A DNA stretch of 64,000 nucleotides, from assembly GCF_963675165.1 (NCBI RefSeq), contig NC_087377.1, positions 9,193,122 to 9,257,121 of the forward strand, written 5' to 3'. The first letter of the stretch is position 1, and each line of letters begins with the position of its first letter. The DNA is from Halichondria panicea. Its lineage: Eukaryota; Porifera; Demospongiae; Suberitida; Halichondriidae. The notes beneath the pieces are model-generated. The model searched no databases. It saw nothing but the letters and a program-made list of their open reading frames with translations, and had not been told where the DNA came from. The translations under genes were made by a program, and so were the position numbers. Of the stretch, positions 27,151-54,398 are shown piece after piece.

Positions 27151-30100
27151 CTAACTGAACTGCACATGTCCATAAGCAACGTTCCCCTGAGTGTGGGGTT
27201 CTGGCTTAATCTTAATACTGTCCGGCTCTTCATATATGACAGGTGGTTGTCTCATTTCAGTTTCAGTTTGCAGAGTTACTTTCTCAGACCTCCTGTACTT
27301 GTTCACTGCCAGCACAATGAGGACACCAATAGAGACTCCAACAACTAGGGTCGGCAGGAACGTCAGGACAAATGTGAGAGCAATTACAGCTTCTCGGGAC
27401 AAAGCTAGAAATAGAAGCACGACATGCATCAATTATACAGTAGACTCTCGTTAATCCGGTCACCCTCGGCACATGCAATTTGGCCGCAATAGCGAGGTGG
27501 CTGCATTTCAGATTATAGCCGCGGCTAAATAGCGGTATCGCCTCGAATCTATATTGCACCGCGCCTGTCGTACCTCCTCTGGGCTCGGGCTAGCCTCGAG
27601 ACCAGGCCGATTAAAATACGGCCTGGTCTCTATTGCATGGGTGATAGTGCACATGCAAGAATCTGGGTAACTCGTTATACTTAGTAAACCTTTGTAAAAT
27701 TATACCGTAAACTAGTTTATTTACTAGTTTCTTTCCGTATTAATTTTAACAAATACTTGTCTCCTGTGAAGCTGTGGCTTATGCTCTCTATTGCGTTGTC
27801 AAGAAGATTTGCTGGCTAGCTGTGGCCCTCTATGGTGTTGTCGAGGAGGCTTGCACACTAGTCTGAAGCCAGAAGAAGCTCTCATTTGTACAGAAATAAA
27901 ATCATGACCATCCAACCATCATAGAGGTATGAGAGCCTCTTCTGGTTTCAGACTAGTGTGCAAGCCTTCTCGACAATACCATAGAGTGCCGCAGCTAGCT
28001 AGCTAGGCTATAAAGCACATAGTAGATAATACGTGGACGTCTATGGACTAGCCTATGATTAATTACACATGCAATAGATACCAGGCCGTATTTTAGTCGG
28101 CCTGAATTCGAGGCTAGGCTCGGGCCAGAGGAGGTACAACAGGCTTGCAGTTTTCATCGGCTAAACTACACCCTAAACGACATACAGTATAGCAAGTATA
28201 ATTATTTCGGGGATATAAATGTACTGCGAACATTTATAACCGCAAATTTAAAATCGCATGTATGCATGCATATATACTGCAAATTAAAAGGCTGCATGCT
28301 ATTCCACGAAAATTAAATCCGCGAAAACCATTCTAAAGGCATTTCCGCGAAAATTTATACCCTCGAAATAATTATACTGCTATATCGGCTGTAATAATGT
28401 ATCACATAGTTTGGGGCAGCCAGAACAGACCAGTATATACAGGTGGCCGCATTTCAGGATGAGTTTATACAGCAATGATCCAGCTAGCCAATGAAACTAC
28501 AGTATGTCGAGGTGACCTTAATTCAGAGATTAGCGGACAGTCTACTGTACCCAATTTCTACCATAAAAACAATATTTGGTAATGATTTGCATGGCTATAA
28601 AGTGTGCATGTTGTAACTTCGGGACAATAGGAAAGGTATATCACTGTGTTTGCTGAGTAGCTTTGAAAAAATAATATTATTATCAGCCCAACAAATGATG
28701 ACATATTGCTAGCGTACTCTCATTAATCTGGTCACCCTTAGAACAGTGCTGCACTAGTGGGTAGTCTCAAGCCAGACTCCTCCCCGAGTCTGGCTAGTCT
28801 GAGGGCCAGACCTAATAGCTCGGGGGCAAAATCAAGAGAGCTATAGGATTAGGTCTGGAGACTCCTGCAGCATTTCCGTGTGCTCTAGTGGAATGTGGCC
28901 AGAGCCAATGAAATGCATATCCTATATGTCATGTAATTTTTAACCCAATGAAATGCAAGTATTGCCTCTGTGGAATATTTGGATGCAGCCAATGAAATGA
29001 GAGTATTGCTACATCGACTCTTTTTTTATAACCTTCAATATCACAGCACACGGAAGTGCTGCAAGAGTCTCCAGACCTATTTCTCTCTTCCCACGCCCCC
29101 CTCTGAGAAAAGATCTGGCCCCCAGAATAGAGTCTGGCATAGAGCAACTTTTCTTGTTTATCAGTTTCGCAAAAATGCAATGACATAATCAGATGATGTG
29201 TTATGTTATGTACCTTGTGTCATCACATGAAATTACAAGCGGAAATATGGGCATGGTGACGAGGCTAAAACTGGCCAGCTATTATCTCTACTCTCATAAT
29301 TATACAGATTTAGTGGGTGCTGGCACATCTACGCCCACGTATATGCCCACACACACGTTACTAGAGCTATGAAACTACCTCAGTGCTGGAGAGACCAGGG
29401 GCGTAGGCAGGAATTTGAGGAAGGGGGGGCTGAGCGCCGAAGTTTTCGGTGACCGGAAGCCACACCCCCTAATTAATGGCTCATTGCGCATGTGCAAGAA
29501 ATAGCCACACCTTGCTTCGATTAATAATACTGCTAAAGCTAGCTAGCTAGCTAGCCGTAGCTAGTTGCACTAAAGAATCAAAGTTACTAGTATAGTATAG
29601 CTAGCTCTTGGACATGCTGTTTGTCTGCCACTAATCTATACCAGTATCTAATTCCCAGGCTGAAGACTCATCAGAGAAGGTGGGGCTCTTAGTGTAGTTT
29701 TTGCAGAGAAAGGGGGGGCTGGAGCCCCCAAAGCCCTCCCCCTCCCTACGCCCCTGGAGACACAGATCTTCACAAAATTATACAAACTACTGCACTCCAA
29801 GTATGTAGACGAAAGGATGACGAGAACAGATTTTACAGTTGATTTTCATCCTCTAGTTAAAAGATACGGTGGCCAAGAAGGGTCACCTGCATGCCTTCGC
29901 CTACCGCCACAATGAACTGCGCGCGGATGTTTTGTTAACCCACGCGCTTAATTCTAAACGCTCGCAGTAAACACATTAACCGCGCGCGCGGTTAAACAAA
30001 GAGCCGCCAACAAAATTTAAGACCATGCAGTCTGCACAAGGTCAAAGATCAATCAAACATGTCCTGCAGTCTGCATCGATAGCCAAGGAATACCTTGCGT

Positions 30101-33100
30101 TAATTAGAATCCAGATATAATTTATTGACCTTTGACCTTGTGCAGACTGATCTTAAAATTTGTTGGCGGCTCTTTGTCCGTGCAGTGTGTCTCGTACCGC
30201 GATCGTTTATATTTAAGAGCGTACGGTCAACAAAAACTCTGCGCGCTTAGAATTAAAGCGCGCGCTGTTCATTGTGGCGGCAGGTGGAGGCGGATGACCC
30301 TTCTCGGCCACCGTAAAAAGAAGTTCCGTCTCAGTAACCACTGCAGTAGAGCTATGGACTTGATTGATTGTTTGCAGGTGCACTATACAAAGCTCTTCAA
30401 TATTACAAAGAGCTCTTGTTGTAAAATCCCTGTTATCTATTATGAGAATTTTTGTCATGACACACCCACTAGAGAAAAATCTAGACCGTATATATGGACA
30501 AAGTCAGCTCGTAACTCTGTTCACCTTAGGTAGTTATAGCAGCATGCTAAATATAGACCAAGTCCTGTACGTAGATAGTCAGATCGAACACTTTATCTAA
30601 TGCTACTAGCGTACGTGTACGCTAGAATATAAATTAAGATGTAAGCCTGTAAGACCACGTCTCAAATCGCGTACGAGAAAACTTTTATCGTTGTGGCAGC
30701 TCAATAGAAGAGCCGTTTGTTGGTAGCCTGAAGAGAAGAGATAGGTAACGCTAGAGCTACAGACAGCACTGACAATGTGAGTGGTGAGATCGAACTTCTT
30801 TTGTTAGAGGATGAAAATCAACGGTAAATCTGTTTTCATTATCCTTTCCTCTCTATTTTTGGAGTGCACACTCATGTGGTTATCTGGCTGCATCTTTGCC
30901 GGTAAGATAAGTCAAATTGTCGTGTTGTGTAAATTTGTAACATTGCTCTCTCCCAAAATTATGTAATGGTGGTCGTCCGCTGTTGCCAGGGAGCCGTAGT
31001 AGTTTGTTGCTTCATAATTCTGTGAAGGATCTGTGTCTCTCCTGCAGAATCTTGCGAATCTGATTGGAGACGTCAATTTTTGATATCTGATCAAGAAAAA
31101 TCCCCAGACCATCTCCCTCTCCTATCATATCACGTGCACTCAGGCCCCAGACTATATTTAGCGAGGTGGCTGCAAAGTGGCATGGCCGCGGCTAATATGC
31201 CTCGAATTTAGATTAATATATGGTTCTGTTTCAAGGGGTGTATCCGGCGTGTCCATTAAACATCTGGTTTGGGGCTTACTAGTATACGAAATAGCGAGGT
31301 GACAGGGCAAGTATTGTACAGTAATGATGCCGAACAAAAATGGCCGTTATAATTTATTGAGGTGACCATAGAGCCAGATTAATGAGAAGTATATACAGGG
31401 CATTCTAAGGCTTGTTCACTCCACACTCACATGGTGTAGGTTCACACAGAACAGTTCCACTCCATGTACCGTCGCTCTGGCACTCTCTGGACGGAGATGA
31501 GGTAGATATGAGTTGGTAACCTTGGTTGCAGAAAGATTGTGCAGTGTGATTGGCTCCAGGGACTTTCCCAGTGTAGCACACACTTCCATTACGGATCGTG
31601 ATACCACCAGCAAAACCTTCCATTAGACACACCTCTGAGGTTTGTATTACACTCGTCAGTTCAGCTACACTACACCCTGCAGTGATGTAATTAATGATCT
31701 CCTAATATTCTTATACATATACACAGGAGTGCAATCATGCACTCCTGATATACATAACTCACTTGAGCGGAACGTTCCCATCACATCAAATGTTAGCCCT
31801 CCTTGGTTGAAATGAATAGAATAACAATAATTGGTTTCAGGCTGTATGGACGTTAGTGTAACTGTCAGAGTATCTCTAGCCATGCCATTAGCTGACATCC
31901 AAGTGCTGGTGTTACAAACTCCTGAGGTCACAGCCAAATCTTGGAAACTACTAGGGTCCGGGAGATAAGCGGACACAATAGCATTAGAGTCCACTATAAC
32001 AACTGTCACAGTCACCAACGAAGAAATACTGGCTGGCACTATAAAAACAAAACAACAATTATTTTTTGTTTCAAAACAATCCAACTCACATTTGAAGGGT
32101 GTCACAGATCGTCCACTTCCTATTCCGTTGGAAACTGTCACAGTCACGTTTAAGTCATTGCTGGGAAGACTATCACGTGCGAAGATAGTCTGGTACTGAC
32201 ACAGGGTGGCATTACAGTTGCCTATGGAAACCACTTTTGGATCACCGACGGTTTGTACAGAGTAAGTAACTACAGGAGACAAACCAGGAGCAACCTCGAC
32301 AAAAGTCTGCATGTGGGGAGGGGTTCTCAAGTACTTAAAATCCTATATAGTCGCATGAGGTTTGACAATCACTTACCACTGTTGGGAATGTGATAGTAAG
32401 AGAGTCGAGGCTGTCACCAGAATACACTACCTGTCCACTGACATCACTAGCAAGAGGGGGGGGTGGTTCTGGAGAGTCACTATGCCACACTCATCCCATA
32501 ATTATATATAGCCCTTACTCACCTGTTAAACTTAGCATGACGGGAGTGCTGACGCTTCCAGGTTGTCCAGTACACAAGGCAGCCCTCACCATAACGGAGC
32601 AGCTTTGTCCAGCGGCAGTCCAATCAGAGCACACTCCTGACATGCTGGAGCTGACCGAACAAGAGCCTCCACAATCTGAGACGACATCATATGAGAAGGA
32701 GGTTCCACAGTCGCTAGTTGGCTTCTCCCAGGTTAAAGTGAATGTGGACAAACCAACGTCAGTTACTACCAGGCTAGTGGGGGGAGGGGGCGGATCTGTG
32801 GGGGTGTGTGTGTACCGCAAGTTAGGCAACTAATAGGGATTACATGTACATAATTATTATCAGGACTCGAGTGCATGAATATTCATGCACTCCTGTTATT
32901 ATGTATAGTAACACTGTTTACCTGCTACTCTTAATGTATGGTTTCCAATCGTATCAAGCGGACCATCTCTGAAACATTGAACAGTTTGACCATTCATGGT
33001 CGAGCTGATATTAATTGACAACTGAGATGTAAAACAGTTTGGGGTAACACTGGTGTTCACTGAAGTACCAACACCTTCTATAGCTCCATTGTTACAGGAT

Positions 33101-33492
33101 CTCATGGATGTAAAGCGACTGTGGGTCAATGTAACAATATCTCCATTTGCTGGACAGTCAAAGCTAGTCCCTGTCCATTCAGTGACAACTCCACCAGATA
33201 CAGTACAAGTGTACGTCTCCACATCCCCAGGACAGAAACACTCTCTTCCAATGGGGAGGGTGGGGAGCACTAAGGTATCACCGGCTCCTGGGAAACACGG
33301 AAAAGATTAAACTGGCATGCAACGTATGTATAATTATGTAGAGTTGACCATGGTTCAATTCTAAAGGGTTTGGCCAGCTGGGATCGACCAAAGCAAACAG
33401 CTAGACCTAAGCTTACCATGCACAATCAATGTTGCTCCAAAAATGATAGGTCCGAGTAGATCTAGAGTAAACCACTGAAGATCAGCCACCAT
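27151..33492 (-). CDS. Receptor B: Ig-like/FN3-like/sushi single-pass receptor with ITIM-type tail
   Basis: Exons in coding order: 33492-33417, 33287-32922, 32795-32523, 32468-32377, 32306-32090, 32038-31763, 31676-31431, 27404-27151. All have GT-AG borders and matching phases, total 600 codons. Residues 1-25 are a signal peptide. About 26-147 is an Ig-like domain (ECFCPGDVETYTC ... VQCF). 148-238 is FN3 (PTSLVVTDVGLSTFTLTWEK). 239-341 and 342-433 are two more FN3-like folds. 433-515 is sushi (YTGKVPGANHTAQSFCNQGY, DGTWSGTVLCE). About 518-545 is one membrane helix. The tail has NVAYGHV, which fits the ITIM consensus, and VIYEEP. N-glycosylation sites are frequent. It is a predicted cell-surface receptor with an inhibitory-type tail; ligand unknown. 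The last intron is 4.0 kb and carries several MITEs. Function is inferred from architecture only. Confidence 0.85.
27438..28547. mobile_element. pogo-like element with nested foldbacks, in receptor B's last intron
   Basis: CAGTAGACTCTCGTTAATCC at the left and ACAGTCTACTG at the right with TA on both sides, as in the 357-bp copy at 14893-15249. The extra length comes from nested AGCCTCG...CCAGGCCG ends (27591 and 28080-28115), which themselves enclose a foldback at 27826-27998 with arms around CTTGCACACTAGTCTGAAGC. Confidence 0.7.
28755..29150. repeat. MITE with CCAGACTC/GTCTGG inverted ends
   Basis: AGTCTGGCTAGTCTGAGGGC with TTAGGTCTGGAGACTCCTGC on the left pairs with GAGTCTCCAGACCTATTTC and AGAGTCTGGCATAGAGC on the right. 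It lies in the last intron of receptor B. Non-coding. Confidence 0.55.
29396..29756. mobile_element. hAT-like MITE, ends CAGGGGCGTAGG
   Basis: CAGGGGCGTAGGCAGGAATT at the left and CCTACGCCCCTG at the right, flanked by a GAGAC repeat (29391-29395 and 29757-29761). CAGGGGCGTAG-type ends are typical of hAT elements in animals, though they usually make 8-bp duplications; only 5 bp match here. Inside receptor B's last intron. Confidence 0.7.
29875..30315. mobile_element. Foldback element, arms of about 190 bp
   Basis: TACGGTGGCCAAGAAGGGTC at the left and its reverse complement at the right. The inner parts GAGCCGCCAACAAAATTT and GTCTGCACAAGGTCAAAG also pair. Arms are GC-rich with CGCGCG runs. Short ORFs across it are shadows of the palindrome. 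In receptor B's last intron. Confidence 0.75.
30600..31400. repeat. Intron sequence with pogo-like MITE fragment
   Basis: TTTAGCGAGGTGGCTGC and GCCGCGGCTAATATGCCTCG near 31158-31207 match subterminal parts of the CAGTAGACTCTCGTTAATCC family. Nothing coding is recognised in the remaining intron sequence. Confidence 0.45.
31712..33287 (-). repeat. Inverted duplication tract 1, copy in receptor B
   Basis: Almost identical to the reverse complement of 46239-47795, introns included. For example the 48-base intron starting GTGAGTTGGATTGTTTTGAA is the same in both. One edge coincides with the start of the Ig-like exon. The other lies just past a small hairpin, GGAGTGCAATCATGCACTCC. Differences are scattered substitutions and 3-codon indels. 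Confidence 0.9.
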
Positions 33493-33860
33493 GATAAATC
33501 GGCCGCTCGTACGCCAACACAGCACTTGCAAAATTGATTTATTTTTGCTACTATATATATAGAGCTCTTGATGTAATGTTCCTATGAGCCAAACGAGACT
33601 TGCAACCAACGTTGTGTTCCGGAGTTAGAGTTAACTTTCCAGCGCTGCCGAAAGTACATAGATCTATATTCAGCCAATTGCATGTATTTCCGGCACAACG
33701 ATCTTCTCTAGAGTATGGAGGCACGATCCAGCTAAGATTAACTTCTAGTAGTAGCTAACTATGTCTACTAGCTGCATGCAAAATATGAAACTCTGTGGTG
33801 TAGCTGTTCCGCTACTAGCCACGCTTTTTTCTCACAAATCTTGATTGAAATTCGACCACG
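33417..33860 (-). promoter_or_regulatory. Receptor B promoter and first exon, duplicated near receptor C
   Basis: 33466-33860 matches the reverse complement of about 42722-43126 almost base for base: GTTAACTCTAACTCCGGAAC and TGGATCGTGCCTCCATACTC occur in both. A TATA-like run (33552-33561) lies about 60 bases before the receptor B ATG at 33492. Conservation across the 5' flank suggests that the duplication carried regulatory sequence with it. Confidence 0.7.
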
Positions 33861-33944
33861 CACATTGCTTTCAAAACTATCTTGCCACGTGGATAAATCG
33901 AAAGTGCTACTGTGTGAGACGTGTTTCCAGGTACTAGGTGCTTC

Positions 33945-35115: not shown

Positions 35116-35584
35116 TAGTCTCATGAATCAGCCGCTGTTCTTTTGGAACCACCGTCTGAGCACTCTTGTCATGAAGTCATTTCAAAATGGAATGTTGATT
35201 GCTCACAAAACCAATGGAATGTAATTAAATTCGTGATCTTACGCCCACACATATTTCCTAATTGTTATACAAATTGCCAAGCGAAGGCATCTCTCTCTAC
35301 TTGTGTTTTGCTGTGGTGCTAAATCTGTGCCCAAGGACCCCTGTTTGCCTTGCTTATGCTTCGTAGCAGCTTCTATGTATGAAGTGTTTACCATGCGTAA
35401 TGCATGCGTAATGATTATCCAAATGCGTTGAGCAAAGTGCAGTTCTTTGCTGCCTCCAAGTTCATCACCTGACTGGACTTCTGCAATTTGATTGGTCAAG
35501 ACGGAATTCTGTCTTGGCACATAAAACGATGACAAGAGTGCTCAGACGGTGGTTCCAAAGAACGGCGGCTGATTCATGAGACTA
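35116..35584. mobile_element. MULE-like foldback MITE, perfect 9-bp duplication AACTTGGAC
   Basis: Terminal inverted repeats of about 60 bp start TAGTCTCATGAATCAGCCGC. AACTTGGAC is duplicated exactly at 35107-35115 and 35585-35593. A 9-bp duplication is the hallmark of Mutator-like elements. No transposase inside. Confidence 0.88.
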
Positions 35585-36277
35585 AACTTGGACTAGAGTT
35601 CTTTTTTCAATGACATCATTATAAATGAAACGGATATCAATGTTTTACAACTAAATGCGGAATAAGAATACTGATAAATATACTACAATTTACAATTACC
35701 AAGGTTCTTGGTAATTCTGGCGCATGCGTAAACAGATTTCGATTTATATCTGTCTACCCGTTTTGTACTTACCTCGTTTCGCCATAAAGGCTAAAAAAAA
35801 AAAAAAAATGTATACCAGGCCGCCTTTCTCAGCGGCCTGGAATCGAGGCTAAGCTAGAACGTTACTGCTGACAGGCGTTCGCCGCCCTCGGTAGTTATAA
35901 TTATACATGTGAGGTTAAAGGTCATCATAAAAAAGAATATTGGATCATCCTACAATGTGGAGAATATTCTCACTGTATGTGAAGAAGTGCTTACTTGTAT
36001 AAGTGGATGTGTTAGCTGTGGAATTATGAATGAAGGTGAGTTAAACTACATAATTATAGAGGGCAATATGGGATTAATTAGCACCAGTAACAAGCAATGG
36101 CAAGGCCTCTAGCTCTAATTGCAAAAGGCAAAGCCAAGCTCGCCAGTGCTTGTTACGAGTATCCCTGGATGAGTAATAATATTTAATAGGCCAGGCAAAG
36201 TAGATTAATACCGTACTTCTAAATAAGCGCTTTTCCTTTTCGAGACTACCTCGTATACTGCCACGGTACTAAGAAAT

Positions 36278-36821
36278 ACTCAGGTACATTAAGGACTAGA
36301 CTGGGACCAGCAATTATTGTTGATTCAGCGAAAACGAAGCTCCGCCCACGATTTTTACTATCAATTGTGCAGTAAAAATGGAGCTTTGCTGCTCTAATCT
36401 TTAGCTCAAATTCCGGAGCATAAAACCTTAGTTTAAGTGTTTACTTTTTAGTGCAGTAGTTAGTTCAAAGCTATATATACAGGCACTACTGTTAGCGCCT
36501 AACAGTGGGATCAGCTAAAGGTGAAATTTTCTAAATAAAGTACTTTTTCAGCTTAATATTTTGCATGTAAAGGCTAATAACTTACTTTTCATTGATCCCA
36601 CTGCTAGGCGCTAACGGTAGTGCCTGTATATAGCTTTGAACTAACTACTGCACTAAAAGGTAAACACTTAAACTAAGGTTTTAGGCTCCGGAATTTGAGC
36701 TAAAGATTGGAGCAGCAAAACTCCATTTTTACTGCACAATTGATAGTAAAAATCGTGGGCGGAGCTTCGTTTTCGCTGAATCAACAATAATTGCTGGTCC
36801 CAGTCCTTAATGTACCTGAGT
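36278..36821. mobile_element. Near-perfect palindrome, arms of about 235 bp
   Basis: The left arm starts ACTCAGGTACATTAAGGACT. The right arm is its reverse complement, ending AATGTACCTGAGT. The arms are nearly identical through GTTAGCGCCTA, with a loop of about 75 bp. No ORF worth naming. A full-length transcript would fold into one hairpin. Confidence 0.85.
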
Positions 36822-37626
36822 AGCCAATATGATGGGATAAATTTCCAGGTGGCGCCTTATTAGAAGGGGGCCTCTAGTACGGTAGTAGTTTCTCATCACA
36901 TGGTTTTTGAAAGCCATGAGGTCATTATTCATTATGATAACAGTGCATTACAGAAACAAACATTACATCATCAGAAATTGAACCTTTCGGTTTCTACTGT
37001 ATTAACGTAACTTAAATTAACGCCACGTAACTTATTAATTATAGACCACTCCATTGGCTTTAGTCGTTTCTAACGATCTGCCTCATAATTATGTATTTTT
37101 GTATTATCCATTCTCTCTTACCCTAGATCTGTTGACACCTATTGAAACAGCATTAGAGTTGCTGTCACAAATAAAAGAGTGGTGTCCACCTTCCCTGATA
37201 CCTGTCTGTAGTCAGTTAGTCCAATCAATGGTTGAAATCGAGATCCGAAGAAGTGCAGTTGATTGTGCAGCTCCCTATGTGCATTTTCATTTCTAAATAT
37301 TTTTGCCCACCACAAATACAATGAAAATTTGACGCATGCGCAGACAACTAGTACCAGGCCTGGCCTAACCGTTATAAAAGCGAAAACTCGGCCTGGGATC
37401 GAGGCTAACACGCGTCGTGATAATCGTTTCCAGAGACGTTCTAGTGATCTATCTGACAAACGTTATTGTGTACGTTCTGATTAATCGTTCTGTCTGCGTA
37501 CACACGTCCTGATAATCGTTTCCAGAAACGTTCTAGTAATCGATCTGACAAACGTTCTTGTGTACGTTCTGATAATCGATTTATTCATGTGAATTACATT
37601 GCAAAAATGTTGGCGGATTTGGCATT

Positions 37627-38814: not shown

Positions 38815-39121
38815 GCTTCTAGGCTCGCTTCTAGGTAATTAATGAGCTAGCTAGCTTCATGGCCATAATTTGTATCTATGTTTTGGCAATGGTTTACAGT
38901 GTGCTTGTAGTGTTGTATAAATAACAACAGCTTCACTTCACTTTGAGACAAACTTAGAACCCCACAATTATGGTGCTGAACATTTATTTTTGTCTTTGCT
39001 TATTCTGTAGGTTACATATGGCTGAAGTACCGCTAAAAGAAAGAATATTTTATAGCCGTACTAAGAAAGCTGCGACTGTATGTGAAGTTAACTCAAAAAA
39101 TCGCCCACCCTCATATACAAG

Positions 39122-43496: not shown

Positions 43497-43499
<3 letters not shown>

Positions 43500-43533
<34 letters not shown>

Positions 43534-44639: not shown

Positions 44640-47600
44640 ATGGTGCCGGTGGTAAGTGGCCTATTTTGGGCTAAAATTCGTATAGATTATTTAATGTTCC
44701 ACAGGTAATCACCTACTTACTGTTCATGTTAGGGACATTCTTCCTCGTTCTACAGCCAGGTATGTTGGATGCTGTTTGTGTGTGGTGGTATCAAATTTCA
44801 TGGTGATCAGCATAAGCAACTGCCTTTTTTGTATAGAATCTGTCTAGTTTATAGGCTGAAGTAGCGTTATCCCTAGGCCGAGTTGTATCAAAATAACGCT
44901 AGGTCGCCAACTAGGCGCTAGGTGTGGGGAAGGTTGTATCTTGGCATGGTTGGAATTCGCTCTTTTTTGCTTTTTTGGCGATTTCTAATCGCCAGTAAAA
45001 TGAACGTGGTGTACGTGTGGATATTTCTCCGTAATCTACCGTAAGCACAAATAGCTGTGTGTATAATAATAATACTTGTAGAAAGCTAGCTAGCTAGTAG
45101 CCTCGGTCCCAGGCCGATTTTTTTTAATAGAACAAAGTTGAAAAATACGGCCTGGTATTGATTGTATCTGGGCGTGGCAGGAACCGGAAACCAAAGCAAA
45201 GATTCTTCATACTTTGTTTCCTGTCATATTTCCCCGTATAAGTTTAATACCGTAATTTTGCTCCGCGTATGCTCTTAAGTAACTGAAATCTAGCCATCGA
45301 TTATCTAGCTAGCTAGCTACTGCAAGTTTAAGTTATTCAGATTAACGTATACATTGTCTGCTTCACAAGAAGGCCCCACTCTCATTACAGAACAGGCCCA
45401 GCTCTTGTCAGAAGGAAGAAACGTCTTTGCCATGGTTTTCAACACGGTATGGCAAGTCTCTTGCTTTCACTCACTGCCCTTTGTGATGGACTACAAACTA
45501 GTAGGTAGACCAACACTGCCGGCCCTTGTTGACAGGTGTGTTGTTCTTGCAAATCTCTCTGCTTCTTGTTTTTTGGTTCCTAACCACGCCCAGATACAAT
45601 CAACACCAGGCCTAGTTGTCAGCCTAGCTAGAAACAACTCGGTCTGGAATCGAGGCTAGCTAGCTAGGTACTTAGATCTAGGCGGTAACTATCAAACAAG
45701 AAGGCCTCCCTCAATGAGCATCGACTCCTTCAATACAGCCTCGTGGAATGGCTACTATTACTCTACATTACCAAGAGTAGGTACGAAGAGAAGATCAATA
45801 GCTGTACACAAACACAATCGCACGTGATAAAGTATTGTGCTAGTAAATGTTGTTTTTAGGGGTTTGGGAATTGATAGTTGCGAACAATGACATCATGAGG
45901 CTAGCTAGTCGTTCGCGTTTGGCGTTCAAAGTTGCTCACTGCCCACTGATAGCAGGGGACATTACTTCAATCTAATCACAACGATTACAAATAGTCGAGT
46001 TGATCCTCTTCACTTGCACTCTTTACTCACAGTATAGATTTTTATGTACAGCTATCTGTAGTTAGACACTCTTCTCTTATCAGACGATACAGTCATACTG
46101 GTGAATTAAAAGCCAAATATTTGCTAAACCAAAAATTTTAATTTCCTACATTGTCTCGCAACCGTAGTATTCAATATGTGAAGTGAAATGGTGGTTGGAG
46201 TCTTTCAATTCACATATCTCTAATTTACATGAAACCAGGTGAAGGTACCTTAGTGCTCCCCACCCTCCCCATTGGAAGAGAGTGTTTCTGTCCTGGGGAT
46301 GTGGAGACGTACACTTGTACTGTATCTGGTGGAGGAATCACTGAATGGACAGGGACTAGCTTTGACTGTCCAGCAAATGGAGGTATTGTTACATTGACCC
46401 ACAGTCGCTTTACATCCATAAGATCCTGTAACAATGGAGCTATAGAAGGTGTTGGTACTTTAGTGAACACCAGTGTTACCCCAAACTGTTTTACATCTCA
46501 GTTGTCAATTAATATCAGCTCGACCATGAATGGTCAAACTGTTCAATGTTTCAGAGATGGTCCGCTTGATACGATTGGAAACCATACATTAAGAGTAGCA
46601 GGTAAACAGTGTTACTATACATAATAACAGGAGTGCATGAATATTCATGCACTCGAGTCCTGATAATAATTATGTACATGTAATCCCTATTAGTTGCCTA
46701 ACTTGCGGTACACACACACCCCCACAGATCCGCCCCCTCCCCCCACTAGCCTGGTAGTAACTGACGTTGGTTTGTCCACATTCACTTTAACCTGGGAGAA
46801 GCCAACTAGCGACTGTGGAACCTCCTTCTCATATGATGTCGTCTCAGATTGTGGAGGCTCTTGTTCCAGCATGTCAGGAGTGTGCTCTGATTGGACTGCC
46901 GCTGGACAAAACTGCTCCGTTATGGTGAGGGCTGCCTTGTGTACTGGACAACCTGGAAGCTTCAGCACTCCCGTCATGCTAAGTTTAACAGGTGAGTAAG
47001 GGCTATATATAATTATGGGATGAGTGTGGCATTGTGACTCTCCAGAACCACCCCCCCCTCTTGCTAGTGATGTCAGTGGACAGGTAGTGTATTCTGGTGA
47101 CAGCCTCGACTCTCTTACTATCACATTCCCAACAGTGGTAAGTGATTGTCAAACCCCATGCGACTATATAGGATTTTAAGTACTTGAGAACCCCTCCCCA
47201 CATGCAGAGTCCTGTCGATGTTGCTCCTGCTTTGTCTCCTGTAGTTACTTACTTTGTACAAACCGTCGGTGATCCACAAGGGGTCAGCTGTAATGCCACC
47301 CTGTGTCAGTACCAGACTATCTTCGCACGTGATAGTCTTCCCAGCAATGACTTAAACGTGACTGTGACAGTTTCCAACGGAATAGGAAGTGGACGATCTG
47401 TGACACCCTTCAAATGTGAGTTGGATTGTTTTGAAACAAAAAATAATTGTTGTTTTGTTTTTATAGTGCCAGCCAGTATTTCTTCGTTGGTGACTGTGAC
47501 AGTTGTTATAGTGGGCTCTAATGCTAGTGTGTCCGCTCATCTCCCGGACCCTAGTAGTTTCCAAGATCTGGCTGTGACCGCAGGAGTTTGTAACACCAGC

Positions 47601-50600
47601 ACTTGGATGTCAGCTAATGGTATGGCTAGAGATACTCTGACAGTTACACTAACGTCCATACAGCCTGAAACCAATTATTGTTATTCTATTCATTTCAACC
47701 AAGGAGGGCTAACATTTGATGTGATGGGAACGTTCCGCTCAAGTGAGTTATGTATATCAGGAGTGCATGATTGCACTCCTGTGTATATGTATCCGACTAG
47801 AAAAACATTTGCAATGTGAAAAATTGCTAGGATTGGCCAGGGGTAGGGCTGGTAGATGAATCTGGAACACAGTCTATACTATGTATTGTACATGTTCATG
47901 ACGTTGTAACGGACACTGCACAAACGTTATGTAACCAAGGTTACCAGGTCTCATCCACCTCCTTTCCATCCCGAGTATGTCAGAGCGACAGTAGCTGGAG
48001 TGGAACTATTGTTGAGTGTATAGATTACCCCCGTCAGTGTATAAGTTTATTAAATGATTATGTTCTCTCGGGTGTACTTGTATAATTATATTAATTGTTA
48101 CTCCATGTCTTGTAGCCCTTATAGTTCCGACTTGGGTTATTGTTGTCACTGTATGTGTGGTTATCTTCTTTGCTGTTGGAATTATCGTGGGAATTTTGCT
48201 TACTCTATTCTGTCGGATTTGTGTACATGGAATTCAACAAAGTAAGTTTGTTTGGTAGTCCTACAGACTGCAAGAGTTAAACTACATGGTGATTATTCAT
48301 TGCAGGAAAGTGCGGCACTCTACTGCTGGTTATTCTTCTTATAATCGTGTTTGGCCTTGGAATTGGTATTCTCATTGGCTACTGCTGTGTGAAGAACAAG
48401 AAAGGTACATTGTGTACCCATACAACTGGTCTGCCTAGCTACTACTCAGAGAAAGATGGCAAGGAGCACTTGGAGTCTCAAGAAATAAAGTGAGTAACTA
48501 TATTTTTCTTACTCCTTCAATTTTTGTTACTATAGTCCACCTCCCGTCGACTCCCTGTATGCCGACCCCAACACCATTGAGCATCAGTCAGCCCCGGGCA
48601 CTGAGGACCAGTACGCCATGGTCGATAGAAAGGTCAAAAAGAACACAAAGCCAAAACCAACTCCACCAGAGGCTCTGTATCAGGTACTACTGTTTGCAGT
48701 ATAAAATGCATGCACTTGCTGTACCTTCTAGTTGTAGACTGATGTGTTTGTGTTCATCCTAAAATGTAAATTACCTGATGCTACCCTTAGTGCCTTGACT
48801 CTGTACAGCACTAACATGTACCAACATGTACCAGCCTCACAGCACCAGTATTATGTGTTCCGATGCTTGCTTCGGTCACTACTATTGTATATTATGCACT
48901 ACTGTTTTGTCTTCCTTATCTAGGACCCTAACAAGATTGAGCACGAGACCGCTGCCTCCGGAGATACTTACGCTGTGGTGGACAAGGCCAAGAAGTCCTC
49001 CAAGAAAGAAGGAGGGCCGGACGTGGTTCCACCAGCCAGCGAAGGGGTGAGTAGAGATGGTCTTGTCTGGTATGCAGTTGCTATTTCTATTGTAATGTGC
49101 ATGTACCTTGAATGTGTATGTGTCTAGGAAAGATTAGAGTAGTATGTACATGTAGCTTTCTGTATCCTTTGCATTGTGTGTACATGTAATTGCATGGATA
49201 GATTATTTTTCTCTTTGTCAACTTACATGTACACACATGGGATGAAGTATCATTAGAGTAAAACTTAAAGAGTTCAAGTACTTGTGAGTACTAGTTGAGT
49301 CAGCTGTGTACTATTGTAACAGCACGACTGTTCCCAGTACCTCTTTAGAGGTCAACAGAAGCCTTACTAAACACAATACTGTGATTATTACCCGAGGCCG
49401 TGCCGCGGCCAGCGGGTATAGTAGTCTGTTGGTTTGTTTGTTTGTTTGTTTGTTTGTGATGGGGTTTTCTACTCACCTGGATGCCATAGCGCTGCGTTTG
49501 CAGCATAGATAGCCTTCACACAACAATATCTTGATTTAAATAGTGGCAGATTTTGATGTTAAAGTTTCTTTGTCGAATAAAAGCGAGCAAAAGCTAAACT
49601 TGCCCGTTGGCAGCTGCTAACTACACGCGGCCTTTATTCGAGATACCCTATGTTACATTGTGATTTTTCCACATGGGTTACTTACAGCTGACGTGATCCT
49701 GTACCAGAAACAATGGAACAGGGTCACTAAAGTAGAAAGCTAGAATTACTACCTCTGCTGACTAGGTATTTGCAGCTGATTGATCCCGTAACATGAATAA
49801 GGGCCAAGAAAGTAGAATTGTGACTGGTTGTTGACTGACTCTGGATCCTATACTCTAGCCTGGAAGGAGCCATACTTCTCTTAGTCTAAGACTCAAGGCT
49901 TCTTTGCTGTGATCCCAGTCCACAGTGCATGTCTCATGTGACATACTCAATGTTTCAGCATCCCTACAGTCTGGTTTAGTTTTATTGCTCTTGAGTTGCT
50001 ATGCTAGTCATACATGCTACATGCACTGCATTATCACTCTTCTGGTTTCTTTATTATCATGTCACCAGCCGAGGGTTTGCACTTTAGTGCTCTAGTGAAC
50101 ATAGTACTGCCCTTTGCAGCTCACTTGGAAGTTTAGGGCAAATAGTAAATTGCAAAAAACCACTTAAGATAAGTGTAACAGTTTACGTAAGTAAACCACA
50201 ATACTATAGAGCAAGGGACCAAGTTTGGAATAGACCAGATCTTTATGTTTTGTTGTTGTAGTTTTTCACGCTATTTGTTATAGCTCACGTAAGCTCACGT
50301 GAAGTTTTGGCAAATAGTATTACAAAAAACCACTTGAGGTACTAAGTGTAACAGTTTACAGCTAAACCACAACTTGGCCAAATCTCTATCTATAAGTACT
50401 AAGTTTGGGCTGTAGGAGTAGCTTGATTACGACATAACTACCTGTTCGTCTAGCTATTTTTAAAATTGTTGACTGAGAAACAGCCTGCTGCTGAACCAGT
50501 CTCCAATTCTCTGCCACAATGACATAGTACGCCACTTAACTCCTCTTGATAAGGATTAGTTTTTCATGGTTACCCAACTAGTAGTTTATGCTGAATACTG

Positions 50601-53600
50601 TACTAGGTATAGCTAGATCTATATATCCACATAGAGATCTGAATCTTCTGTTCCAAAATTTAAACTTGGTCCCTTGCTCTATAGTATTGTGGTTTACTTG
50701 TGTAAACTGTTACACTTGTCTCAAGTGGTTTTTTGCAATTTACTATTTGCTCCAAACTTCCAAGTGAGCTGCAAAGGGCAGTACTGTACATGTACACAAT
50801 ACAAACGTGCATGTTATCAGTGACCTTATCTTCCCCAATGCTCATATTGGTGTACGTGTTTAGGAAGGAAGGGAAACCATAGTTTTTCTCTGGGTACTAT
50901 GTTATGGTTAGAACATGGGCATGAGGTATCTATGTATTATAGTGTCCCAAAGCTCGAGGGCTTTAGCCCGAGGGATGAGGGACACTATAACCATAGATAC
51001 CGAATGCACATGTTCTAACTGATTTAGATCCCAAAACCTATTGGCTACTAGAAATGCACTAGCTTAGCAACAGTCAACCTATATAAACAGCCAACCTAGC
51101 AACTGCATCATTATTCTTTTGAAAACTAATATCTGAAGTTGGCATCTCTGTGTCTCTACTAAATCTGTGGTCTCTATTCAAGTCAACCGGCCTGTTCCTT
51201 CACCTAAGTTTGCAGGATGGACAAAATTATAGTCCTAGCTCCACCCACAAAACTTAAACATCCAGCTCCTCCCCCAGTTTTGCAGCAAACAAGCCCAGCA
51301 CACTTCCCAAGAAACGAGCGGCTCGTACTACTCGAAAGGAAGACACCTAAGCTATAATTTGCAGCAAACAAGCCCAGCAAACGAGCGGCTCCTATACTAC
51401 TCTTGAACAAACCGAAAGGAACTTTAGGAAGAAGCCAAAGCTGAATCCCAGCACTTCCATACATCCAGCTCCTCCCCCATGCAGCCTTGCAGCAAAAAAG
51501 CACAGCACACTGCCCAAAAAACGAGCGTCTCCTACTACTCTCGAACAAAGTCAAAAAAAGAAACTAGAGCTTCTCTCTTTCATTCTAGTTCTGTTATTAT
51601 ATTACTAGACAAAGCATCTAGCTACAATAATTTTTATGTTATTACATGTATCTTCTTGTAAATCACAATACAATGTGCAATGTTGTAGTTGTAGTTTGTA
51701 GCCCAGAGCAATCTATAGTACCGGTACTATAGCTCATAGTTCCCTGCTAAATACCCTCAAATGGGATCTAATAATTTTGGTAGTTTATATTCAATAAGTT
51801 TATTGCCATCTTGTGAATGCTCATGTGCTAGGAAAACATGGCATGCCCAGCACAAAGTTACCATTTATAGCCAGCTAGTGCGGTATAGCAACTGTTCCTA
51901 ATAAGTAACTCTCTGATCATACAACTCTTTCCCTATTGATTGTGCACGTGCCCCTTTCAAAGAATATTCATTCTCAATCTAATGACATGGTGTTTGTCTT
52001 GACCACTGTCTAATGGATGAATGTTTGTGTGTTCATGAGAGGATCCAGTAGCACAAACAGTGCGACTAGAGTCACTTTCACTTTCCTGCTGTTGAATACA
52101 GCTGTTTTCTTGTTAGCAACACCACTGTGAATTGAGATACACGGTTACCATTGAGTGAATTTCCCGCCTAGCTGACCTTAATACAATTAACCTATTGTCA
52201 TAATGACGTGCTTTCTCACCTGCCAATTGCGGGTGTGTGTGTGTGTGTGTGTGTGTGTCTATTGCCTTAGTAGCGTTTGTTTTTTATTGTGAATTTACGT
52301 TAATAATAGTACACGTAAGACATTCCTCTATGGCGCATAGTATTGGTTGCTAATCAGCCCTGTTAGTAAGTGTGTGTCCTCTTGTGCGTTGTCTGCCGCT
52401 CTCTTTTTGCATTAGGTTGCATAGAATACCTTCAGTTTCAGTGATAGTGGCTCTGGTGTTCCCTGGTGTGCATGTTTGTTGTCATGTAAACAGCTTTATT
52501 CATAGAATGTACTCATAAATCCACCCCTAATGTTTGTGTGTACATGATTTAGGGGTAGATTTAAGAGAACGTGATAAAACCTTCCGTTGCTCCTTGATAG
52601 CGGTACCATTGTGAATTGCAGTTGTCATAACTAGCCTCTGACCTTCATTTCCAAAGAAAGTGATCATGCTTTCTGGTTTTTGATACAACACTGATTTCTC
52701 TGTATACATGTACATGACTTAGATAGTGAAAAGTTAGCGTAATAGAACCATAAATTGAAGCATCAACTCATAATTATGATTTAACACATTTTTGCTAAAA
52801 GGTGACTATGAGTGGTTACTTGCCAACCATTTGACACTACTGTGAGATGTATAAACACCCACTTTAGTAGTGGTACCCTAAGTACTTGGTTGTCATGTGC
52901 AATTGTTAATCATGGGTCAGCAGTTATTTACTAGCACCTTTACTGTATCGTATACAATGTGTACTGCGTGCCATTCACATGTACATTGTACAGTACTACC
53001 CCAGCCCACGTTAGTCAGCACACAGCTGTGGTAATATCCCTGCTTTCTTATAGTTATGGTCATGAATCAGGTATCATATTTCATGTGCAAATGTGTAGGG
53101 TGTGGCTGGCCAATATTCATAGCCATATAGAGCTGACCTTTGACAATAACACTCTTACAGTGCTTTTCAATCACAGTTGAATGTTGAAATGAGTACTCAC
53201 AATACAAGCCACTAAACCATAAAGCTGTGACAGCCACACCTAGACTCATGCAGCTTTGTGGTTTAGTGGCTTGTCATAGAGTGTACTCATTTCAACATAG
53301 AATGATCTTCAACCTACTTGAATACATAACATTCATACACACATGTGTTGCACCCAATAGCCAGCCAGTGGCTGTGCAATGTTCCTTACCGTATAGCGGG
53401 TAATTTTCAGGGGACAAAATATTCGTGGTTCAGCAATATTGAGACATTTCGTGGGTAATATTTCCGTGGTTGCTGCTTGCACTACAGGTAAAGGTAGGCA
53501 AGGTCGCTTCATTCGTGGGTAAAATATTTGTGGTCAGACCTCCAACCACGAAAACAACGAATATTTTGTCCCACGAAAATGACACGCTATAATTATGTAG

Positions 53601-54398
53601 TTTAATGCAATTAAACGTAGTTAACGCCAAGTATGAGCCGCGGGTTAAGTCGAGTGTTGAGCATGCACGTGGTGGACCACGTGGTAGTATCAGTCGCATG
53701 TGTCAGAAAAGAAGGCAAACTGATATTTCCCGCCCACCCGCCCCTTTAGTTGAGTGTTTATAGTGTGCTTTAAGTTTTCCTCCGGCTAGGTCTCCTAGCC
53801 ATGATCAGCGTTCTTCCGCAGGGGGGGATTAATTAAGGGGAGCTGTTATGAATACCCAGCTTCCTTGTGATCACCCTATACATAGCTATGAATAAGATTT
53901 GCCCTAAACAGGGTAAACATGAATAACCATCTGTCTACTTATGTTCATGTTTTCATTTCTTATGCTGAAAGCTAACATTCAAGTTTGCTTAACAGATGTC
54001 CATTGTCTAAATAGCAATGGTAAACAAGTTCTGTTATTATGTCTGATCATAATAACATTCATTCTGACATTATACAGCTACCATTACACTAATCATTACA
54101 CTGTAGTGTACTGTATAGTAAAGGGCCACACTTGAAATATCTATGTATAGCTGGGTATCCAACTTCTGCGCTTTTACAATAGTTATCGTTGTTAATGGAC
54201 TTGCTAATGTGTTTATGCAAAAAAATTATTGTATAAACCATTATTTTACTATAATTATTGCCTATGCACACACACACATACACATTCACCACTTAGCTGA
54301 CCTATGCTCTGAGCAGCAAACGTCCAAAGCCAGGCAGTGGTCGACAGGCACCCCAACAACCCGGAGAATATCCAAAAGAACATCCTGTGGAGTATTGA
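44640..54398 (+). CDS. Receptor C: paired paralog of receptor B with tyrosine-rich tail
   Basis: Exons: 44640-44651, 44705-44759 (new signal peptide, MVPVVITYLLFMLGTFF), 46239-46601 (Ig-like), 46728-46991 (FN3), 47046-47137, 47208-47415, 47467-47742 (FN3-like), 47841-48032 (sushi remnant, CNQGYQ...SWSGTIVEC), 48116-48241 (membrane helix 1), 48306-48489 (membrane helix 2), 48536-48683 and 48924-49046 (tail repeats), 54297-54398 (tail end). All borders are GT-AG and phases match, total 715 codons. The ectodomain is near-identical to receptor B. Tail tyrosines: SLYADPN, DQYAMVD, ALYQDPN, DTYAVVD, LTYALS and GEYPKEHPVEY; Y-A-x-V-D sites are plausible SH2-domain targets. The two tail exons are duplicates of each other. 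The last intron is 5.25 kb and its exon was joined by phase and content only. The sushi domain lacks its usual first half. Ligand and signalling direction are unknown. Confidence 0.82.
45354..45540 (+). other. Unassigned open stretch in receptor C intron 2
   Basis: An open frame (to 45659) contains ITEQAQLLSEGRNVFAMVFN and ends near a possible donor at 45535. It resembles coding sequence but has no family I recognise, and inserting it would break the phase between receptor C exons 2 and 3. The following part is an AGCCTCG-type repeat. Confidence 0.2.
46239..47795 (+). repeat. Inverted duplication tract 1, copy in receptor C
   Basis: Partner of 31712-33287. It spans the Ig-like exon to just beyond the third FN3-like exon, introns included. 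It contains the palindrome GTGCATGAATATTCATGCAC (46634-46653), shared with receptor B's matching intron. Similarity stops abruptly before the sushi exon. Confidence 0.9.
48116..48241 (+). other. Symmetric cassette exon encoding a membrane helix
   Basis: 126 bp, phase 1 at both ends, encoding one strongly hydrophobic helix (VIVVTVCVVIFFAVGIIVGI) ending CRICVHG. The next exon encodes a second helix. Skipping this exon keeps the frame and leaves a single-pass protein. Including it gives two helices and would put the tyrosine tail on the other side of the membrane. Confidence 0.65.
49385..49630 (+). repeat. Family R repeat, copy 3
   Basis: Starts ATTACCCGAGGCCGTGCCGC, then GTATAGTAGTCTGTTGGTT and a TTTG microsatellite, CACCTGGATGCCATAG and GATTTTGATGTTAAAG. 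Inverted relative to 17280-17440 and 2971-3360. In the last intron of receptor C. Confidence 0.6.
49692..50093 (-). repeat. Dispersed repeat, copy 2 (partner of 1193-1926)
   Basis: Reverse complement of the 1.2-1.9 kb repeat, without the MITE inserted there. It lies in the last intron of receptor C, upstream of the 50.1-50.8 kb foldback. Confidence 0.75.
50094..50796. mobile_element. Foldback element, arms of about 130 bp
   Basis: CTTTGCAGCTCACTTGGAAG through ACTATAGAGCAAGGGACCAA at the left is mirrored at 50667-50796. A third, partial copy of the same arm in the left-arm orientation (AAAACCACTTGAGGTAC) lies at 50285-50365. No protein. In receptor C's last intron. Confidence 0.75.
50885..51010. 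repeat. Short palindrome around GCTCGAGGGCTTTAGCCCGA
   Basis: GGTATCTATGTATTATAGTGTCCC pairs, in shorter blocks, with GGGACACTATAACCATAGATACC-like sequence around a GCTTTAGC centre. It would form a hairpin. Non-coding. Confidence 0.5.
51236..51556. repeat. Three irregular tandem units, TTGCAGCAAACAAGCCCAGC
   Basis: TTGCAGCAAACAAGCCCAGC and AACGAGCGGCTC...TACTACTC occur three times with variable spacing. CATCCAGCTCCTCCCCC occurs twice. Minus-strand open frame over it is a by-product of the repeat. Confidence 0.6.
52231..52257. repeat. GT microsatellite
   Basis: A perfect GT dinucleotide run of about 13 units in receptor C's last intron. Confidence 0.9.
53178..53303. repeat. Foldback, arms of about 55 bp
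   Basis: TGTTGAAATGAGTACTC and ACAAGCCACTAAACCA at the left are mirrored at the right by TGGTTTAGTGGCTTGT and GAGTGTACTCATTTCAACA. Confidence 0.7.
53391..53593. mobile_element. MITE with CGTATAGCGGGTAATTTTC end
   Basis: ATAGCGGGTAATTTTCAGGG at the left pairs with CCCACGAAAATGACACGCTA at the right. The interior has repeated TTCGTGG/CCACGAA blocks. Half copies lie at 41735-41770 and around 28200-28390, the latter in receptor B's intron. Confidence 0.65.

Follow-up and report, generated by a model that had tools for sequence, protein, structure and literature searches.

Vertebrate leukocytes carry clustered families of Ig receptors (KIR, LILR, SIRP, PILR and CD300) whose members have similar ectodomains and opposing tails, and the activating members of these families mostly signal via adaptors through a charged residue in the membrane segment. 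To our knowledge, paired receptors with converted ligand-binding exons have been described in vertebrates only. Among early-branching animals, the Alr complex of Hydractinia encodes Ig-like receptors. In the primate pair Siglec-11 and Siglec-16, an inhibitory and an activating Ig receptor, repeated gene conversion homogenises the ligand-binding exon region, and a non-functional partner allele is frequent in humans (PMC5701461). In Botryllus, fester is an invertebrate receptor with Ig and sushi domains and several membrane segments, and the fester genes adjoin receptors with ITIM, hemITAM or YxxI/L/V motifs; the new loci reported number more than 37 for the fester family and 53 for FcoR (PMC12065747). 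Candidate genes with ITAM and ITIM motifs in the Hydractinia allorecognition complex are also mentioned there (PMC12065747). In a literature search covering few subscription journals, none of the papers listed reported paired receptors from Porifera.

Here we describe two neighbouring receptor genes, B and C, located in the window, that is, the whole stretch of 64,000 nucleotides that was analysed. In our assessment B and C are probably paired receptors that have one V-set specificity and different tails, with V exons copied between tail classes. Both models were readable exon by exon, with the B stop at 27151 (minus strand) and the C stop at 54398 (plus strand), and all modelled introns had GT donors, AG acceptors and matching phases. 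Positions 35501–39000 of the window were covered by computational scan alone. The features of the two genes and of the DNA they share are as follows:

33417–33492, minus strand: B exon 1, signal peptide MVADLQWFTLDLLGPIIFGATLIVHG (splice sites, phase)
32922–33287, minus strand: B exon 2, V-set Ig domain (splice model, invariant columns, predicted fold)
32523–32795, minus strand: B exon 3, FN3-like domain 1 (Pfam fn3 19 bits, below the cut-off of 25; weak fold match)
32377–32468, minus strand: B exon 4, FN3-like domain 2 part 1 (splice model; domain named by inspection)
32090–32306, minus strand: B exon 5, FN3-like domain 2 part 2 (splice model; domain named by inspection)
31763–32038, minus strand: B exon 6, FN3-like domain 3 (splice model; domain named by inspection)
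31431–31676, minus strand: B exon 7, sushi domain (splice model; Pfam Sushi above cut-off)
27151–27404, minus strand: B exon 8, encoding the membrane segment and a tail that has YEEP and the ITIM-type VAYGHV (splice model, tail comparison)
44640–44651, plus strand: C exon 1 (MVPV), start of signal peptide (splice model without homology support)
44705–44759, plus strand: C exon 2, remainder of signal peptide (splice model without homology support)
46239–46601, plus strand: C exon 3, V-set Ig domain that nearly matches B exon 2 (splice model, B/C comparison)
46728–46991, plus strand: C exon 4, FN3-like domain 1 (splice model)
47046–47137, plus strand: C exon 5, FN3-like domain 2 part 1, with zero coding differences to B (splice model, B/C comparison)
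47208–47415, plus strand: C exon 6, FN3-like domain 2 part 2 (splice model)
47467–47742, plus strand: C exon 7, FN3-like domain 3 (splice model)
47841–48032, plus strand: C exon 8, sushi domain, diverged from that of B (splice model, Pfam, B/C comparison)
48116–48241, plus strand: C exon 9, membrane segment TM1, a phase 1-1 cassette (splice model, homology)
48306–48489, plus strand: C exon 10, membrane segment TM2 and juxtamembrane part (splice model, homology)
48536–48683, plus strand: C exon 11, tail 1 with SLYADP, EDQYAMV and ALYQ (splice model, homology)
48924–49046, plus strand: C exon 12, tail 2 with GDTYAVV (splice model, homology)
54297–54398, plus strand: C exon 13, tail 3 and stop, preceded by a 5250-base intron (splice model; similar exons elsewhere on contig C1)
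31706–33277, no strand: shared block, B copy (inverted repeat)
46246–47799, no strand: shared block, C copy, inverted (inverted repeat)
33462–33868, no strand: second shared block, the region upstream of B and the start of its exon 1 (alignment)
42719–43126, no strand: second shared block on the C side, upstream of the gene, where a remnant of exon 1 ends in a stop (alignment, translation)

The original prediction of near-identical Ig and FN3 exons and introns in B and C was upheld: the inverted repeats were 97–99% alike, the Ig and FN3 exon block was 97.25% identical over 1565 bp in one alignment, and 299 of 301 aligned intron bases agreed. As the introns are as alike as the exons, recent copying would by itself account for the identity in this block. 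Over 400 codons of the ectodomain dS was 0.0154 and dN 0.0253, a ratio of 1.6; the test applied did not separate it from 1 (p = 0.36), leaving positive selection on the shared ectodomain unsupported. The shared part is not confined to the Ig and FN3 exons, as had been supposed, since the region upstream of the B start was copied too, with 92% identity between the two copies of the second block. The copy on the C side holds the first ten codons of the B signal exon and then runs into a stop, so that C needs its own signal exons (44640–44759), for which there was no match in loci L001–L021. The signal peptides, membrane segments and tails of B and C do differ, as the exon models and comparisons made clear. 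The sushi domains, which had been listed as different, have diverged (dS 1.47) but are homologues, with 70% identity over 33 aa.

Above cut-off, Pfam finds only Sushi (21.3 and 21.4 bits versus a cut-off of 20.7); the Ig identity was based on invariant columns and fold comparison. No Pfam Ig cut-off was reached, with PF00047 matching one of 20 members (E 0.032), and the B Ig exon matched zero Pfam families at E ≤ 1. Throughout the 20 rows of the V-exon alignment the B-strand Cys (C27), C-strand Trp (W37) and F-strand Cys (C104) were invariant, and 11 of 19 relatives in alignment A1 shared just 22–29% identity with the B V exon. The model of the Ig exon (pLDDT 72, pTM 0.68) folded as a V-set domain, with an antibody chain as its best fold match (Z 10.6, rmsd 2.9 over 108 residues) and TCR V and CD8 ranking close behind. 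Judged by this predicted fold, B exon 2 and C exon 3 are V-set Ig domains. The fn3 family of Pfam was approached in the first FN3-like exon only, below cut-off (19.0 and 19.3 bits versus 25); the model of FN3-like domain 1 had a pTM of 0.56, and its weak fold matches included FN3 chains (E ~0.1).

The predicted ITIM-type site of the B tail (NVAYGHV) was found as a single VAYGHV in exon 8, and a strict ITIM, as a sequence motif only, occupies the final tyrosine in 13 of 21 retrieved B-type tails. Contig C3 carries SH2, SH2 and PTP exons in that order, followed by WPDHG and HCSAGIGRTG stretches, and its second SH2 stretch matches PTPN11 (E 4.4e-53); the genome contains a SHP-2-type phosphatase gene with the catalytic motif. 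The B ITIM together with such a gene makes an inhibitory role of B plausible, in which the phosphorylated ITIM would recruit the SHP-2-type phosphatase and the cell would be damped. In the tails, amino acid replacements lag behind synonymous changes, with a median dN/dS of 0.345 for B tails (21 comparisons, 7 tails) and 0.29 for the C tail exons (55 and 45 comparisons; 11 and 10 genes).

The C tail is long, as predicted, with nine tyrosines beyond the second membrane segment where at least six sites had been claimed; its sites include acidic YxxV and YxDP, both conserved, and none of the nine tyrosines has the ITIM form. Other SH2 proteins would bind to this tail, and its output would differ from that of B and probably oppose it. 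Two ITIM-pattern sites lie elsewhere in C, IDYPPL before TM1 and IGYCCV at the inner edge of TM2, the latter being kept in all six TM2 exons read (in one as VGYCCV), and so the ITIM difference between B and C is not absolute. By inspection against the usual patterns, neither an ITAM nor a hemITAM was found in the C tail, and no charged residue was found inside TM1 or TM2 of C (TM1 of L001 has one Asp). It is conceivable, if somewhat unlikely, that the pairing is real and both receptors inhibit or both only adhere, with the C tail recruiting an inhibitory kinase, a phosphatase or adaptors. Pointing in that direction are EDQYAMV and GDTYAVV, which we take to resemble Csk- or adaptor-binding sites, and YxDP, which we take to resemble Crk-type sites, as well as the ITIM form of IGYCCV, the lack of a recognisable ITAM, the largely conserved tail sites, and D-class genes that join C-type TM exons to ITIM tails.

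To correct the original description, C has two hydrophobic membrane exons, an arrangement in which the tail could lie outside the cell. TM1 and TM2 both begin in phase 1, TM1 being a 126-base phase 1-1 cassette from which read-through into the following intron reaches a stop after 5 codons, and both exons are present in L001, L003, L005, L006 and L007 and weakly in L019. Median dN exceeded dS in TM1 (0.135 and 0.072) and fell below it in TM2 (0.026 and 0.082; 15 comparisons each). These observations are consistent with the reading, on balance doubtful, that TM1 and TM2 are alternative exons, or that both are used and C, with its tail outside, is a decoy or adhesion protein. The slow protein change behind TM2 and the tyrosines, most of which are kept among relatives, argue against an outside tail, as they are expected only if the tail lies inside the cell in some isoform.

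Further family members, for which a genome search had been proposed, form a cluster on one contig. Three genome searches yielded a census of 34 V exons on contig C1 at 8.7–10.1 Mb, which leaves out a degenerate V piece in L019 (5221–5577, plus strand) and anything the searches missed. Ten genes in this census belong to the B tail class, and the V exons of seven of them have a counterpart of 90% identity or more in a gene of a different tail class; six of these seven different-tail twins are the next V exon along the contig. V exons at least 90% identical were linked by 11 edges (seven between different tail classes, three within a class and one of unknown class), and the same-class twins were 36–682 kb apart. 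For 11 genes of the B and C classes, the nearest V relative was the adjacent gene and this gene belonged to the opposite class, where adjacent means next among the 34 V exons and other genes may intervene; shuffling positions matched this count in 0 of 100,000 trials and shuffling tail labels in 57 of 100,000. When all tail classes were counted, tail-label shuffles often reached the observed value (10,082 of 100,000 with 34 genes, and 4,794 times with 26 genes). The different-tail twins include L002/L003 (94.0% over 2724 bp), L010/L011 (98.7% over 617 bp), L009 (93.5% over 382 bp), the tandem L017 (91.7% over 2191 bp), L049 (94.9% over 350 bp) and L057/L021 (97.4% over 344 bp), the last being 79 kb apart and having a third copy of the V exon in L059. 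If L012 is counted, whose twins have a protein identity of only 76%, there are seven different-tail pairs of neighbours whose V exons are related, and six of them are head-to-head; several loci were chosen for that orientation, a bias that the census lowers for the nearest-neighbour test only.

Not every neighbouring B and C share an ectodomain, as the two in L008 have no V exon in common and neither do the neighbouring L013 C and L057 B, each of which is closest in its V exon to a gene outside this pair. Opposite pairing was likewise rejected for the far clusters at 12.85–12.95 Mb, in which the divergent neighbours L050/L051 and L052/L053, with V regions inside 75% and 85% alignments, have the same tail class within each pair. 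Several pair members are damaged or altered: there is a frame break in the L017 B and L012 C V exons and a stop codon in tail exon 2 of L010 C, the ITIM is lost at the tail end of the L049 B gene (also in L027), the L017 B ITIM has one extra residue, and in L009 B, as far as it was retrieved, the -2 place of the ITIM is Ala.

In L009, L010/L011, L049 and L057/L021 near-identity is limited to the V exon (L010/L011 includes the signal exon as well), although the downstream exons are homologous DNA at ~71–86% in aligned pieces. Identity ceases within ~10 bp of the splice donor in four pairs. In two pairs, V exons had a dS of 0.04 versus 0.20–0.51 in the FN3 exons; synonymous changes were 3.5/87.5 in V versus 40.7/195 in FN3 for L009 (p = 3e-4) and 3/88.3 versus 62.5/189 for L010/L011 (p = 5e-9). 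Read from the sequence, these features carry the signature of gene conversion that keeps paired receptors alike, a situation found also in Siglec-11/16.

The same tracts might belong to a diversification engine rather than to pair maintenance, in which V cassettes are copied among many receptors for new specificities, as expected for allorecognition, and identical partners are snapshots of recent copying. That reading, which we consider unlikely, gains from the exon precision of the tracts, the distant L057/L021 twin with its third copy, the widely spaced same-class twins and the low identity of most A1 relatives to the B V exon; a free cassette pool would not, however, place six of seven different-tail twins as immediate neighbours. 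Quite improbable, in our view, is concerted evolution without functional pairing, whereby inverted homologous neighbours exchange by chance and V identity has no selective meaning. Inverted neighbours may favour gene conversion, several pair members are damaged, and the introns of the B/C block are as alike as its exons, all of which fit chance exchange, but near-identity is V-limited in L009, L010/L011, L049 and L057/L021 although their downstream homology is convertible too, and the twins join different tail classes in seven of 11 edges. An assembly or palindrome artefact, or two haplotypes of one gene, would also yield a near-identical block, but is very unlikely and was rejected given that the tails differ, that both copies lie in inverted order on one 18.1 Mb contig, that identity is exon-limited in several pairs, with tracts that stop at splice sites in four of the pairs, and that the pattern returns with other V exons.

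We return to B and C as probable paired receptors. Their V-set Ig domains would see the same or an overlapping ligand, with the different tails reporting binding. Gene conversion or exon transfer would have carried the V exon (in B/C the whole Ig–FN3 block) repeatedly from one tail class to another, and partners would thereby keep one specificity while pairs diverge mutually. The original prediction of a paired-receptor design stands for the architecture, which recurs in seven twin sets of at least 90% identity; the signalling polarity is putative, and by inspection the C tail has no ITAM. We infer expression, a common ligand, phosphorylation, polarity and an immune or self/non-self role of B and C. 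More tentatively, with the chances a little short of even, an early-branching animal, perhaps a sponge, may have a chromosomal V-set receptor complex in which V exons, cut at the splice donor, are copied between ITIM-tailed and differently tailed receptors and each specificity exists in two signalling forms. Receptor pairing with conversion of the ligand-binding exon would then either have an origin separate from that of vertebrate leukocyte receptors or predate them by far, and it could provide the receptors for allorecognition in this animal. As to the sponge identity, a silicatein-like probe hit 19 places, of which the five that were read encode cathepsins with CGSCWAFS or close variants, and COX1 was found only as a 64-residue fragment with two TGA codons. 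If true, such a pattern far from the vertebrates would provide a test bed for why one specificity is kept in two signalling forms, and it would supply specific genes for candidate recognition receptors together with a predicted effector.

Compared with the vertebrate leukocyte families, C differs in that the charged membrane residue was not found in its membrane segments. The Hydractinia Alr complex is alike, by description, in its early-branching host and Ig-like receptors, and we know of neither an FN3–sushi architecture nor opposite-tail twins there. Botryllus fester and FcoR resemble the present receptors, again by description, in their Ig and sushi domains, multiple membrane segments and neighbours with tyrosine motifs; each pair there differs in being a receptor and a co-receptor, and uncle fester and fester have the 3' half in common and not the NH2-terminal half, the reverse of B and C (PMC12065747). 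From CEACAM1/CEACAM3 and their relatives in mammals (PMC2832619), the locus differs in lineage, in domain order and in a C-type tail that has no ITAM by inspection. Siglec-11/16 is similar in that the ligand-binding exon region is kept alike between partners by gene conversion (PMC5701461); those receptors are vertebrate sialic-acid lectins, whereas here, in another lineage, FN3 and sushi domains are present and seven different-tail twin sets lie in one cluster. The recurrence of the arrangement along one chromosome suggests that the paired-receptor strategy of vertebrate immunity evolved in this animal, possibly a sponge, too.

Exon-by-exon models, built from splice sites and homology, placed the two head-to-head receptor genes exactly where the original prediction had put them:

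B, 33492 to 27151, minus strand: 8 exons, 599 residues
C, 44640 to 54398, plus strand: 13 exons, 714 residues

All modelled introns have GT donors, AG acceptors and consistent phases. B encodes, in order, a signal peptide, a predicted V-set Ig domain, three FN3-like domains (the second spread across two exons), a sushi domain and a single membrane segment that leads into a short tail. C has its own signal peptide, Ig and FN3 exons as in B and a diverged sushi, and its 3' part consists of two membrane-segment exons (TM1 and TM2) and a tail encoded in four exons. The last of these follows a 5250-base intron, and its protein recurs over 33 residues at 100% at four other places on C1, the contig that holds the window, and at 73-80% at three more. 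The predicted near-identity of the Ig and FN3 exons and their introns was borne out, with B and C being 97.25% identical across 1565 bp and four introns differing at 2 of 301 bases. The signal peptide, membrane exons and tail of C are its own, as had also been proposed, but the sushi domain, listed among the differing parts, is better described as diverged. Across 400 aligned codons, 22.5 changes were nonsynonymous and 4.5 were synonymous (dN 0.025, dS 0.015), with no significant departure from equality of dN and dS (p=0.36). A second block shared by B and C lies upstream (419 columns, 92%) and holds the upstream side of B together with codons 1-10 of the B signal exon. Because the C-side copy of these codons runs into a stop, after which come 3.1 kb of different sequence, C seems to have received the shared block first and to have gained a different signal exon later, an order that we infer. 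Between the two genes, 39092-42375 (plus strand) contains remnants of a transposase-like gene (HTH_psq, Pfam E 9.5e-11), tandem repeats and other open frames that had no Pfam match. Elsewhere in the window are a minus-strand exon that encodes a von Willebrand type D domain (6284-6880; Pfam E 8.5e-15) and a run of 200 Ns (5656-5855).

The Ig exon of B had no Pfam match of its own, and 1 of 20 relatives reached PF00047, weakly. Its assignment as a V-set domain is based on the residues C27, W37 and C104, which are invariant in the exon and its relatives, and on an AlphaFold2 model (pLDDT 72, pTM 0.68) whose predicted fold resembles the V domains of antibodies, TCR and CD8, with Z near 10 across roughly 100 residues (best Foldseek E 8e-4). 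Sushi exceeded the Pfam cut-off; fn3 fell below it, and the structure model of the first FN3 domain was weak.

The window lies at C1:9193122-9257121 in an assembly of 131 Mb. The search for further family members that had been recommended found B- and C-type tails clustered on C1. The membrane-and-tail exon of B gave 97 matches at E<=1, and all of those listed fall within 8.6-13.8 Mb of C1, several per gene in places. Of the 39 that the corresponding C query gave at E<=0.1, 38 lie on C1 at 8.9-10.04 Mb and one on contig C13; the first tail exon of C was present at twelve places. In a third class, D (loci L005, L006 and L007), C-type TM1 and TM2 are followed by a tail that carries three sites of ITIM form (VIYEEI, IAYSHV and LAYGHV), and L001 has C-type TM exons plus a D-like match further downstream. 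A strict ITIM was found at the last tyrosine in 13 of 21 fetched B-type tails; six others have a substitution, indel or stop, and the remaining two run off the end of the sequence retrieved. At 11.6-13.7 Mb on C1, nine sampled tails have a different form, PVYEEV with QAYGPV or QAYGPL. Related receptors form another group in this region (sampled as L033-L041 and L050-L053), their tails being of the PVYEEV...AYGPV/L type, and in the two neighbour pairs examined there the V exons are divergent in direction and the tails of one class.

V-exon twins joined to different tails recur along C1. Loci L001-L007 were picked by likeness to the ectodomain of B, and L008-L021 as adjoining B and C tails or as remaining C tails. 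Neighbours with opposite tails shared ectodomain DNA at 94.0% over 2724 bp (L002/L003), 98.7% across 617 bp (L010/L011), 93.5% across 382 bp (L009) and, on the same strand, 91.7% across 2191 bp (L017); those of L012 were less alike (86% across 396 bp), and those of L008 did not share it. L049, chosen for two V exons 0.6 kb apart and flanked by D and B tails, gave 94.9% across 350 bp. The effect of locus choice was reduced by a census of the 34 V exons listed by searches at 8.7 to 10.1 Mb (12 C, 10 B, 10 D and 2 unknown tails, the last eight added being assigned by the positions of B-tail matches). For 11 genes the nearest V relative was the adjacent gene with the other B/C tail, a count matched in 0 of 100,000 shuffles of position and in 57 of 100,000 shuffles of tail label; when any different tail was counted there were 13 genes, matched in 0 and 10,082 of 100,000, respectively. 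Given these counts, like V exons are physically paired far beyond chance and, adjacency given, B/C pairing is also beyond chance, whereas pairing with any different tail in the 34-exon census is not beyond chance in tail shuffles. Earlier versions had given 11 of 20 B/C genes (24 V exons; shuffles 1 and 63 of 100,000) and 13 of 26 genes (shuffles 0 and 4,794 of 100,000). Census edges at >=90% identity comprised seven between classes, three within a class and one with an unknown tail, and 7 of 10 B genes had a V twin at >=90% on a different-tail gene, this twin being the next V exon in six.

The shared tracts are often bounded by the V exon. V-exon dS was 0.041 in L009 and 0.035 in L010/L011, as against 0.20-0.33 and 0.35-0.51 in the FN3 exons of the same partners, with sushi saturated; the V and FN3 synonymous counts differ at p=3e-4 and 5e-9, respectively. 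L057 (B) and L021 (C) are separated by 79 kb and were 97.4% identical across 344 bp; in the rest of that B gene, as far as it was fetched (L014), the best match was 75% over 240 bp, 26-base matches aside. In L009, L010/L011, L049 and L057/L021 identity ends within about 10 bp of the V-exon splice donor; on the opposite side, the L010/L011 tract includes the signal exon. Longer tracts, introns included, were found in B/C of the window, L002/L003 and L017. The simplest account of the exon-bounded tracts is conversion restricted by unrelated introns, and selection for matching V domains would then determine which tracts survive. L057, L059 and L021 place three V exons, about 96-97% like L021 in DNA, within 80 kb (L057 and L021 on the plus strand, L059 on the minus strand), and at the protein level the V match of L059 breaks off early.

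The tails are constrained: median dN/dS was 0.29 in the first two tail exons of the C class (55 and 45 comparisons; 11 and 10 genes), and the B membrane segment plus tail gave 0.345 (21 comparisons, 7 tails). TM1, a 126-base phase 1-1 exon, and TM2 are adjacent in C and D genes. TM2 resembles that of C at 88-97% in five loci and 41-44% in L009 and L019; across six loci its median dN and dS were 0.026 and 0.082, and those of TM1 0.135 and 0.072, with hydrophobicity kept. If both were used, with a cleaved signal peptide, the tail would lie outside the cell; since the tails are constrained, alternative use of TM1 and TM2 seems more likely than joint use. The C tail tyrosines include SLYADP, EDQYAMV, ALYQDP, GDTYAVV and LTYALS, among others, with no strict ITIM and no ITAM among them. 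L010 has a stop within tail exon 2, and L016 and L021 have Cys in place of the GDTYAVV tyrosine. At the inner edge of TM2, IGYCCV has the ITIM form and was kept in all six TM2 exons compared (VGYCCV in one). This site counts against a clean ITIM contrast between B and C, and because of it we hold the paired-receptor reading slightly less firmly, as a moderately probable one.

In the SH2 search and among the matches listed for phosphatase domains, contig C3 carries SH2, SH2 and PTP exons in that order. The second SH2 stretch matches PTPN11 (SHP-2) in PDB at E 4.4e-53, and the stretch after it contains WPDHG and HCSAGIGRTG, which we take to be the phosphatase WPD loop and catalytic motif. This SHP-2-type gene is a ready putative effector for the ITIM of B. 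PTP domains are hugely expanded in the genome (at least 174 matches at E<=1e-5); among the matches listed, most form dense runs on contig C4, mostly at 0.04-2.6 Mb, and this family might counter the receptor tyrosine tails.

Judged from sequence, the B/C-type genes look as if they work as paired receptors. By architecture, the nearest invertebrate parallel in the accessible text of the sources is the fester/FcoR pairs of Botryllus, and the acidic YxxV of the C tail recalls the 'core tyrosine motif' described there for FcoRs (PMC12065747); the V-exon sharing, however, finds no likeness in what that text says of these pairs. In Siglec-11/16, an inhibitory and an activating receptor, gene conversion between the two covers a region that includes the ligand-binding exon and is reported for every primate examined (PMC5701461).
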